From positions 1-30,952 of the IMG/VR virus record IMGVR_UViG_3300042881_002943: a stretch of 30,952 bases of DNA. The stretch is one strand, 5' to 3'. This stretch comes from a virus. Positions 27,503 to 30,861 of the stretch are shown here, piece by piece (the stretch's first letter is position 1; every line of letters starts with the position of its first letter). A program made the translations under genes and the position numbers. The notes under the pieces are model-generated. The model ran no database searches, was not told the origin of the DNA, and worked only from the letters and a program-made list of their open reading frames with translations.

Positions 27503-27895
27503 CTAAAACTCCTCCCCGACCAGAAAGTACAACCATCCGCCGCCGAGCTTTTTCGGTTGCTTTGCCGCGATCCGCCAGACCAGCATCCCGAACTTTTCGG
27601 CAGCCACCCGGATCTTGGCTTTCGCATCATCCTCAGCCAGCAACTTGCTGCCGGTGTGAATCTTGACCTCATGAGCTTCGATCGTCCCATCAGGTAGTTG
27701 AACGATAAAATCCGGCGTATAGCGACACGACCTCGCCAGCTTGAACGTCAGCGGTTCATAGTCCCAAGCCAGCAACTCACCGGCCAAGACTCTCGCTGTG
27801 AGTACGTCAGCATAGGCTCGCTCAGTCGCGTTCATTTCGCCAGGCTGTCGCCGGCCAGTCCGGAACTTTCCTCGGCCCCATCGACCTTTTGACAT
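27503..27895 (-). CDS. DUF1064-like/VRR-type nuclease (130 aa)
   Basis: The ATG at 27895 has AGGAG 8 nt upstream. The pattern 'MNATERAYADVLTARVLAGE', 'AWDYEPLTFKLARSCRYTPD', 'FIVQLPDGTIEAHEVKIH' and 'KIRVAAEKFGMLVWRIAA' closely follows the DUF1064 family (ETaYAehLe..kqaGei..y.yE...lkLa....YtPDF.v...dG..E.HEvKg..), which has a PD-(D/E)XK fold. The likely active residues are Asp in 'PDF', and Glu and Lys in 'HEVK'. It is probably an endonuclease or Holliday junction resolvase-like protein for DNA processing. Confidence 0.8.
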   Translation of the reverse strand: MSKGRWGRGKFRTGRRQPGEMNATERAYADVLTARVLAGELLAWDYEPLTFKLARSCRYTPDFIVQLPDGTIEAHEVKIHTGSKLLAEDDAKAKIRVAAEKFGMLVWRIAAKQPKKLGGGWLYFLVGEEF

Positions 27896-27915
27896 AGATA
27901 GACTCCTTTGTTGCT

Positions 27916-28653
27916 TCAGAAAAGCGTAAACGCATCTTCCTTTGGACATCCATCCCACAAAGATGCCGATTGGAATGATTCGATTCGCTCCGCAATAATC
28001 GCCATCCGCGTCGATGCGTTTGGCGGACAGTACATCCCAAACCGGCTATAGCTCGATGAATTTCGTACCGCATTCGTGCTGTCGGCACTTGCCAAAGGCA
28101 ACGCGGTAAAAACTGCTGGGTCTAACATTCGCAACCCGTGCAGCTTGGTTCGTGGCCTGCCATCATTGCAGACGACTTTCATAGCTTCCGCCATGCGTCG
28201 CCACCAACGGTCGTTACCTACCGTCGCGTAAATGTCGCTTGAACCAATCGCAATGCGAGCCCAATTTGATGCGAGCCAATCAAGCCGATCTAAGCTTTCG
28301 TGCATGTGCCACACTGGAACGCCAATTGTTCCACGCAAGGACCGCTCCCATTCGTCGATTAAATCGTTGTTTTGTCGCTCGTCGCCGTCGATTACATCTG
28401 GAATGATTGCCCAATCAAACGCTGGGTGATGCTTCCAATCATCGACGAATCGATAGTAATTCAACCAGTCAATCGTTTTGCCTTGCTTCCACGCAGAGAA
28501 AGCCCCGTTGTCGATGCAAAACGATTGACACACTTCGGCCGCTGTTCCGATGTCTTCCGGTCGAAAAAACGAAATCAAGGCGTGACGATTCCTGAGGAAT
28601 CTAGCAACATCTTCCCGTGTTGCTCCGCATGGCGTTCCGTGGTAGTGAATCAT
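27916..28653 (-). CDS. TGT/DpdA-like putative 7-deazaguanine transglycosylase (245 aa)
   Basis: The ATG at 28653 overlaps the preceding TGA (ATGA). Motifs 'FCIDNGAFSAWKQG', 'WAIIPDVIDGDERQNN', 'VPVWHMHESLDRL', 'KLHGLRMLDP' and 'LASADSTNAVRN' follow the order of phage DpdA/tRNA-guanine transglycosylase-like TIM barrels. The conserved Asp in IDNGAF and IPDV, His in HGLR and the SADSTN motif are candidate active-site residues. If active, it could exchange G for a 7-deazaguanine in phage DNA, protecting it from restriction. No complete preQ0 synthesis pathway is in the window, so the base would come from the host or a salvage route. Homology is inferred from motif layout. Confidence 0.5.
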   Translation of the reverse strand: MIHYHGTPCGATREDVARFLRNRHALISFFRPEDIGTAAEVCQSFCIDNGAFSAWKQGKTIDWLNYYRFVDDWKHHPAFDWAIIPDVIDGDERQNNDLIDEWERSLRGTIGVPVWHMHESLDRLDWLASNWARIAIGSSDIYATVGNDRWWRRMAEAMKVVCNDGRPRTKLHGLRMLDPAVFTALPLASADSTNAVRNSSSYSRFGMYCPPNASTRMAIIAERIESFQSASLWDGCPKEDAFTLF

Positions 28654-28904
28654 TCGACAACAACCAGCCTTCCATTTTGGCCATGCCGTCCCTTTACAGT
28701 TATCCTGCATTCAATGTTTAGCTTCTTTCGAAGCAGTTCCAAAACCATTTCTTGTGAAATTTGCTGCCCGCGAATCTCTTCGCAGATGGCTTCGATTTTT
28801 TCGCATCTGATGAAGTCTTTTGTTTCGATTTGCACGCTGTAATAATCCCAAACAGGTGCAAACGGACATCGTGCGTGGATCGTTGTTTTGTGCATTGCTT
28901 TCAT
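28650..28904 (-). CDS. Small protein, possibly T-fold-like (84 aa), coupled to the DpdA-like gene
   Basis: The ATG at 28904 has AGGAG upstream (AGGAGTCTAACT before ATG). The core 'CPFAPVWDYYSVQIETKDFI' and 'RGQQISQEMVLELLRKKLNI', then 'GRHGQNGRLVVVE', has an alternating strand-helix layout with a Cys-Pro at the start and a late 'GRHG', faintly like T-fold enzymes (QueD, FolE, QueF). This resemblance is weak and is noted mainly because it overlaps the TGT/DpdA-like gene by ATGA and so may be its functional partner. Confidence 0.45.
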   Translation of the reverse strand: MKAMHKTTIHARCPFAPVWDYYSVQIETKDFIRCEKIEAICEEIRGQQISQEMVLELLRKKLNIECRITVKGRHGQNGRLVVVE

Positions 28905-28941
28905 AGTTAGACTCCTGTATCTCCCAACATTAGCGAGTTGC

Positions 28942-28996: not shown

Positions 28997-29100
28997 TGGA
29001 TCGGGCAGGATTCGAACTGGCTTTAAGGGTATCCAATCCTTCTGGGTGTGCGGTCGTCACTGCACTTTTCCCCAGCGTGTTCCCACCACGCCGCCGATCC
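28997..29100 (-). tRNA. tRNA-like element (104 nt), atypical
   Basis: On the minus strand the first 7 nt GGATCGG (29100-29094) pair perfectly with CCGATCC at the 3' end (29004-28998), followed by discriminator A. T-loop sequence GTTCGAATCC sits the expected 12 nt before the 3' acceptor arm. Possible arms in order: GCGTG/CACGC (D-like), TGGG/CCCA enclosing a GTGC/GCAC hairpin instead of a normal 17-nt anticodon arm, AAGG/CCTT (variable-arm-like), and a weak T stem (2 mismatches). No normal 7-nt anticodon loop was found. It may be a degenerate tRNA, an insertion-bearing tRNA or a tRNA mimic. Confidence 0.35.
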
Positions 29101-30378: not shown

Positions 30379-30861
30379 TCAGCCAGCTGGCTTGAGATTC
30401 AATACATGCCGCCTTAGCCGCATCAGCCGCCGCCCAAGCCGCCGCCCAAGCCGCCGCCCTAGCCGCATCCCTAGCCGCCGCCCAAGCCGCCGCCTAGACG
30501 CATCCCTAGCCGCCGCCCAAGCCGCCTCCATAGCCGCATCCCAAGCCGCCGCCCAAGCCGCCTCCATAGCCGCCGCCAATTCCTCGTCGGTTGCGTTGCC
30601 GTGAGCGAATCGCTCAGCCACATCGATGGCGTCCTTGCTGCGCTGGTCTAACAGCAAATGCTCGATGCTCCTAGCACAATACAAGGCAAACAGTCGCAGC
30701 TCTTTGTCAGTAAGGACTCCTCGCCGCGTTGCCACCCAAACCATCCACTCTGGCGGCAGCTTGTTCCAAGCATCGAGCATCGATTCGCAATTCGCCAACG
30801 CCCAGTCACGACCTTCTTTGCACGCTTTGTATTTGTCGCAAAACTCTTCAATTGTAATCAC
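30379..30861 (-). CDS. Ala-rich repeat protein, immunity-protein-like, with apparent internal frameshift (160 aa)
   Basis: A GTG start, with GAGAG upstream. The N-terminal 95 residues (EFCDKYKACKEGRDWALANC onwards) resemble the phage 'putative immunity protein' family ('kAC..G..Wa...'). The tail begins with Ala/Trp repeats (EAAWAAAWDAAMEAAWAAAR) and changes abruptly to Arg/Leu repeats (RRRLGRRLGMRLGRR). Adding one G near 30490 would restore the Ala frame to a stop at 30350-30352, giving about 170 aa. So there is a one-base deletion in the GC-rich repeat, either real or a sequencing error. Confidence 0.5.
   Translation of the reverse strand: MITIEEFCDKYKACKEGRDWALANCESMLDAWNKLPPEWMVWVATRRGVLTDKELRLFALYCARSIEHLLLDQRSKDAIDVAERFAHGNATDEELAAAMEAAWAAAWDAAMEAAWAAARDASRRRLGRRLGMRLGRRLGRRLGRRLMRLRRHVLNLKPAG

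Follow-up and report, generated by a model that had tools for sequence, protein, structure and literature searches.

Can two short, overlapping genes be enough for a phage to install 7-deazaguanine bases, and if so, in which polymer and with what final product? This question is raised by a gene pair in the window, i.e., the whole stretch of 30,952 nucleotides of the viral record IMGVR_UViG_3300042881_002943 that we analysed. An earlier note on this DNA had described two overlapping reading frames, of which the larger showed the motif series of DpdA/TGT-like enzymes (IDNGAF, IPDV, HGLR, SADST). Both frames are indeed present on the minus strand with the four bases ATGA in common (Table 1), and the motifs are real and almost invariant among relatives. 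At a probability of about 0.6, we read the pair as a two-gene phage module for 7-deazaguanine modification in which a DpdA inserts preQ0 from the host and a miniature QueF-Like protein converts the nitrile of this base. This reading builds on the predicted folds of both proteins, their conserved catalytic residues, the near-obligate coupling of their genes and the kinship of the larger protein with DpdAs that are tied to modified DNA.

The open reading frame of the large gene would begin at 28710 if taken at its maximum length, but homologues begin at the methionine of MIHYHG (28653) and the coordinates that the earlier note gave for this gene are therefore right. Both frames are beyond chance because the large protein matches the protein family phrog_887 while the small frame is kept at 49-60% identity across independent contigs. 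The shared ATGA recurs in relatives and would couple the translation of the small gene to that of dpdA. Ahead of the small gene lies a Shine-Dalgarno-like leader whose shared form occurs twice in the window (0.34 copies expected by chance), both times on the minus strand; the second copy (27893-27907) precedes the gene downstream of dpdA, and there is no third copy in the window.

The gene directly downstream (27503-27895, minus strand) matches phrog_190 (Holliday junction resolvase). In Rhizobium phage RHph_X2_30, a VRR-NUC nuclease and an SNF2 helicase come after DpdA, so that a nuclease neighbour recurs. Elsewhere in the window (30379-30861, minus strand) lies the gene of a protein that is related to phrog_18326, a family of unassigned function, and whose tail is a long repeat of Ala and Arg (AAWDAAMEAAWAAARDA..., then RRLGRRLG...).

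Table 1. Features of the gene pair, in coordinates of the window.
Feature	Position	Strand	Basis
Small gene, T-fold protein resembling QueF-Like (family A)	28650..28904	(-)	ORF, 84 aa
Small gene, start ATG	28904-28902	(-)	sequence
Small gene, stop TGA	28652-28650	(-)	sequence
Large gene, phage DpdA/TGT-family base-exchange enzyme	27916..28653	(-)	ORF, 245 aa
Large gene, start ATG	28653-28651	(-)	sequence
Large gene, stop codon	27918-27916	(-)	sequence
ATGA overlap, small-gene stop / large-gene start	28650..28653	(-)	sequence; recurs in relatives
Shine-Dalgarno-like leader AGGAGTCTAACTATG (shared form AGGAGTCTAnCTATG) of small gene	28902..28916	(-)	DNA motif search
Large protein, Asp48	codon 28510-28512	(-)	aligned with 9g D72
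Large protein, Asp191	codon 28081-28083	(-)	aligned with 9g D215
Large protein, His172	codon 28138-28140	(-)	aligned with 9g DpdA H196
Large protein, His116	codon 28306-28308	(-)	alignment with 9g, CAjan, Dp-1 and 7-11 DpdA
Small protein, Cys13	codon 28866-28868	(-)	residue conservation
Small protein, Asp20	codon 28845-28847	(-)	residue conservation
Small protein, Glu52	codon 28749-28751	(-)	residue conservation

The large protein and its target

The DpdA of the window adds a new protein to an established family. Among the PHROGs its match is phrog_887 ("queuine tRNA-ribosyltransferase"; E 1.1e-74), a family that is also matched by the DpdA of phage 9g (2e-98) and by that of Dp-1. With this protein alone as query, tblastn found 172 phage records at E <=1e-5, and such searches reached the DpdA of Salmonella phage 7-11 at 1e-23, of CAjan at 4e-7 and of 9g at 1e-3; the DpdA of Pantoea phage MED16 is 40% identical across 197 residues. 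A Pfam scan returned no family, not even at E 10 and including the TGT family PF01702, which E. coli TGT matches with 560 bits. Searching PDB sequences with phmmer gave nothing useful for either protein of the pair.

The AlphaFold (AF2) model of the large protein is a TIM barrel (pLDDT 85.4, pTM 0.83), in agreement with the DpdA/TGT-like fold that had been proposed from the motifs. In the raw Foldseek list, this model was placed among mixed TIM barrels with arcTGT in fourth place, and the best 50 rows of a refined structure comparison all belonged to the TGT family with arcTGT first (Z 15.7, rmsd 3.5, 228 aa). The catalytic residues are present, too: Asp48 and Asp191 correspond by motif to D89 and D264 of E. 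coli TGT, an equivalence drawn from motifs and from the 9g and CAjan DpdAs (hhalign with E. coli TGT as the only counterpart of the DpdA family gave no alignment), while His172 aligns with a histidine that Hutinet et al. describe as conserved but missing in DpdA2. No Cys cluster like the TGT zinc site (CxCxxC-H) occurs in the large protein or in the DpdA alignment, and it is likewise absent from 9g DpdA. Taken as a whole, the large protein is very probably a transglycosylase of the 7-deazaguanine type.

Its target is suggested by its relatives. In CAjan, deletion of dpdA removes all dPreQ0 from the DNA, and in Dp-1 a QueF-type gene acts with DpdA to give dPreQ1 (PMC6884629). Of the singleton-DpdA phages tested so far, 7-11 and MED16 (PMC6884629, PMC8306585) had only small amounts of dADG and Orion had nothing; in MED16, dADG amounts to 0.13%, and several enzymes that have guanine in their sites could still cleave this DNA (PMC8306585). 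With these singleton DpdAs of 7-11 and MED16 the window protein shares clear homology, the predicted TIM barrel, the catalytic Asp pair, the DpdA His and the lack of preQ0 synthesis genes. Unlike in 7-11, where no T-fold gene was seen beside dpdA, such a gene overlaps dpdA in the window, and the small gene upstream of MED16 dpdA is a different one. Read by eye, the small dpdA neighbours in CAjan, RHEph04 and 7-11 are not T-fold-like. By analogy with CAjan, Dp-1, MED16 and 7-11, the pair probably acts on DNA.

The nearest folds of both proteins are those of an archaeal tRNA pair, arcTGT and QueF-Like, and by this precedent the genes of the window could serve to modify host or phage tRNA. We consider this very unlikely, given that the closest sequences are phage DpdAs for which DNA modification has been shown (CAjan, Dp-1) or seen (MED16, 7-11), that the zinc-binding cluster of TGT is missing, and that no tRNA gene was found in the window or, in most relatives, near the pair. 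One tRNA candidate upstream of the small gene (the TTCGAATCC string near 29005) was confirmed by neither ARAGORN nor Rfam.

A protein target has a precedent as well, since deazaguanylation of proteins is real (PMC11996544) and the large protein has Cap10 (9ntn), which in type IV CBASS is linked with a CD-NTase and Cap9, as one of its top matches by fold (Z 15.4), so that a Cap10-like enzyme acting on a 7-deazaguanine-protein conjugate could be imagined. However, both catalytic Asp residues are retained, the nearest sequences are DNA-acting DpdAs, and searches of the record, which is a fragment, gave no QueC-family match and, for the pair and three neighbouring genes, no PADLOC match. This explanation appears extremely improbable to us.

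The small protein and its candidate chemistry

The earlier note had called the small protein a possible T-fold partner, and this suggestion gains substance from its AlphaFold model, a beta-beta-alpha-alpha-beta-beta T-fold unit (pLDDT 83.8, pTM 0.75) that carries both a Cys and an acid/base Asp. Archaeosine synthase QueF-Like takes every one of ranks 1-13 among its Foldseek matches (best E 3.5e-6), and in the refined comparison QueF-Like scores Z 12.2 (rmsd 1.8 A, 83/84 residues), followed by GTP cyclohydrolase I (FolE) at 10.9, dihydroneopterin aldolase at 10.2, QueD at ca. 9 and unimodular QueF at 8.9. The conserved positions contain no CEHH or HxH motif, i.e., none of the zinc-binding Cys/His set of FolE and QueD. 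By sequence, the small protein has no match in Pfam, and its matches in PHROGs and NCBIfam are weak and chance-like.

The close relatives of the small protein, here called family A, are represented by eight distinct proteins, across which Cys13 and Asp20 are invariant. Their profile ranked QueF-Like first of 177,635 PDB sequences, but at E 0.26, so this match is suggestive only. Its alignment places CPFAPVWD on CPISKTVD of QueF-Like (C13 on Cys21, D20 on Asp28), RG on RG and QE, with E52, on HE. Compared with the QueF family, the profile gives P 0.02 for family A alone and P 0.0009 for family A together with a second family, B (see below); the Pfam QueF family itself is unmatched. CP-x5-D is common to the small protein and 20 bacterial QueFs, and some of these QueFs also have QE for HE.

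In QueF-Like, Cys21 forms a thioimide with preQ0, which must already sit in tRNA, and ammonia then yields archaeosine (PMC5485725). The small protein resembles the Pyrobaculum calidifontis enzyme in the spacing of Cys21/Asp28 to C13/D20, in the RG...E segment and in lacking the NADPH motif of QueF, and QueF-Like is itself the pathway partner of a TGT-family enzyme, arcTGT. Unlike QueF-Like, it is phage-borne, coupled by its gene to DpdA and ca. 20 residues shorter, with ca. 23% identity over the structural alignment. We judge it likely that the small protein acts on 7-deazaguanine with or for DpdA.

It could do so as a minimal QueF that uses NADPH to turn preQ0 into preQ1, with DpdA inserting preQ1 or preQ0 being reduced in place. 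Bacterial QueF has the same Cys, Asp and Glu, and Streptococcus phage Dp-1 sets an example with a phage DpdA and a QueF-superfamily T-fold of the same residue set that together give dPreQ1, though the Dp-1 enzyme had first been called QueF-L (PMC6884629). Yet Dp-1 encodes the preQ0 pathway and a QueF of 173 aa with the NADPH motif, as opposed to an 84-aa T-fold without it and no synthesis genes found in the window. This motif, E-[SL]-K-S-x-K-x-Y...R between strand 2 and the FHE segment, is present in the aligned bacterial QueFs and in Dp-1 QueF but absent from every family-A member. In addition, the spacing from Glu to Arg as read off alignments is 10 in the small protein, as in QueF-Like, and not 12 as in QueF, and the predicted fold is nearer to QueF-Like than to unimodular QueF. 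A reductase is therefore, in our estimation, quite unlikely.

Family B, the commoner of the two families, corresponds to phrog_37496, whose function is unassigned. Its members are like the window protein in size, position and overlap with dpdA, yet the window protein has no direct match to phrog_37496. A profile of family B alone picks up family-A members at E values down to 9e-5 and profile-profile comparison of the two gives 91% probability, so A and B form one superfamily. Their joint alignment shows an invariant Cys, Pro and Tyr together with two nearly invariant Glu. Among PDB sequences, the matches of a mixed profile of both families were limited to a sensor protein and ribosomal protein LX, which we take as chance. 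Family B has Ile or Val where family A has the Asp of QueF-Like, and instead shows a nearly invariant CP-x-D plus HE; it may therefore perform a different chemistry, only bind the base or be no enzyme at all.

This leads to the possibility that the small T-fold converts nothing and instead binds free preQ0 or docks on DpdA for base delivery, oligomer assembly or grip on the DNA. Family B, which retains Cys, Tyr and Glu without the Asp, would fit such a role. Against it, only thioimide chemistry readily accounts for the invariant Cys-Pro and for a family-A Asp placed at exactly the spacing of QueF-Like. A second argument for a non-catalytic partner is that the T-fold occupies the site of a preQ0-type transporter in other loci, as if both were for supply, but this alternation is not significant after allowing for relatedness and the two genes occur together in loci L105 and L150. 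On balance, we think a non-catalytic partner unlikely.

Pairing of the two genes across phages and genomes

The suspected coupling of the two genes is well supported by their distribution, as surveyed in searches that were seeded by the small protein only and in which some loci are the same contigs fetched twice. DpdA adjoins the family-B gene on the same strand in 79/79 viral loci and the family-A gene in 18 of 20, with the remaining two being one contig that ends there. Family B also occurs in 10/298 Pseudomonas genomes, with DpdA adjacent in all ten and in one additional Caballeronia copy (11/11). Apart from contig ends, no small protein without DpdA was found in the searched loci. The overlap comprises four bases in 84 of 110 distinct T-fold/DpdA pairs and one base in another nine. 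Gene order is reversed in five of these 110, and Microcystis phage Mae-JY30 has its T-fold gene downstream of dpdA.

On a tree of 74 DpdAs, the presence of the T-fold is scattered with at least 12 changes, so its link to DpdA has been kept or remade many times. Conversely, neither T-fold nor transporter is found near DpdA in 20/80 viral loci and 48/80 genome loci, and with so many DpdAs lacking a T-fold, DpdAs in general do not depend on this partner. Similar DpdAs without either gene also occur in lambdoid prophages of Salmonella, Shigella and Klebsiella (loci L092, L093 and relatives; BTP1, SfI), where DpdA lies next to ea22 or DUF1317 genes within the early region. We found no reports on the DNA modification status of these prophages. 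The DpdA on OR850331.1, a record of 1719 bases labelled as Staphylococcus phage, is 82% identical to a Rahnella prophage copy and like the Salmonella BTP1 group; this record is probably misnamed or contaminated.

In the literature searched, we found no report of an 84-aa QueF-Like-type partner, of the A/B superfamily with phrog_37496 or of its near-obligate coupling to DpdA; a relevant 2023 paper on further phage 7-deazaguanine derivatives, which may describe a related T-fold, lay outside that search.

Precursor supply and the candidate module

No preQ0 synthesis genes were found in the window, as had been remarked before: QueC was found neither there nor in related longer contigs, all of which may be incomplete, and QueF and Vut_1 were likewise found neither in the window nor in its longer relatives. 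The preQ0 would therefore need to come from the host. Nor did we find a recognisable QueF in phages of the DpdA family without a T-fold. In other phages, a Vut_1/DUF165 protein neighbours DpdA, i.e., in 18/80 viral loci and in Pam5, RHph_N3_2, RHph_X2_30 and BUCT006. The NCBIfam model "queuosine precursor transporter" matches this neighbour at 2.3e-11, below its curated cut-off. Such a transporter beside DpdAs ties the unit to preQ0/preQ1 independently of any fold. Among the 80 viral loci, 42 have the T-fold, 18 the transporter and none both; both do occur together in the two loci named above, and RHph_X2_30 carries transporter, a small gene, T-fold and DpdA in a single run. Mutual exclusion of T-fold and transporter was considered on the strength of the raw counts and dropped because a test on independent pairs from the tree showed no significance.

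With a host supply of preQ0, which we infer to be the substrate just as we infer the purpose of the module, the two proteins could work as follows. DpdA, a phage DpdA of the "singleton" type, would be a base-exchange enzyme with one Asp as general base and another as nucleophile that frees guanine from nucleic acid (most likely DNA of the phage itself) and places preQ0 from the host pool in its stead. The small protein would assemble into a T-fold ring in which Cys13 attacks the preQ0 nitrile and a thioimide results; Asp20 would serve as acid/base, and Glu52 would hold the purine. Ammonia would then most likely yield an amidine, i.e., archaeosine (dG+), the route that we prefer because the small protein lacks the NADPH motif of QueF and has QueF-Like as its best match. 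Translational coupling would keep both proteins in step. We name dG+ as product rather than dPreQ1, dADG or another base tentatively, at somewhat less than even odds. The end product proposed here is the one that occurs in the DNA of phage 9g, whose DpdA belongs to the same insertion-enzyme family; unlike in the window, 9g encodes preQ0 synthesis and its amidine step is taken by Gat-QueC instead of a T-fold.

In a bolder version, which we regard as rather doubtful, DpdA and the mini T-fold would be the two subunits of a single enzyme that both replaces guanine and remodels the nitrile on the spot, with family B, which lacks the Asp, performing a new preQ0 reaction such as thioimide hydrolysis to an amide. 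If true, no smaller system of 7-deazaguanine DNA hypermodification would be known, and it would be present in hundreds of temperate phages that are nowhere listed as modified.

Hundreds of related phages retain the pair, which may thus serve as a minimal set of genes to disguise viral DNA. Protection from restriction would nevertheless be the weakest part of this reading because MED16 DNA with dADG is still cut. The largest group of DpdA phages lacks synthesis genes altogether, and whether their DNA is modified has been described as hard to predict (Hutinet et al. 2019). For these phages, and for the question of how dADG arises in 7-11 and MED16, the T-fold family offers a concrete second enzyme and a predicted product. 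Base modification would thereby extend to many prophages of Pseudomonas and Burkholderia relatives and to freshwater phages, with a bearing on restriction, sequencing artefacts and phage defence, and a two-gene kit of ca. 1 kb would be a useful tool to write 7-deazaguanines into DNA.

Two further genes were observed at related loci. A third small gene (81-86 aa, ...ERADG-PIDPSRRY..LDFSGADP...) lies beside DpdA and transporter (L105:3248-3490, L095:3178-3438), occurs in Rhizobium phage RHph_X2_30 and Pseudanabaena phage Pam5, matches phrog_9572 at 1.4e-12 and possibly belongs to the module as well. In Mae-JY30 (L104:1997-2827), a "NinC-like" gene with a PP-loop-like SGGRTS motif overlaps the dpdA start by ATGA, and QueC is a PP-loop enzyme as well.
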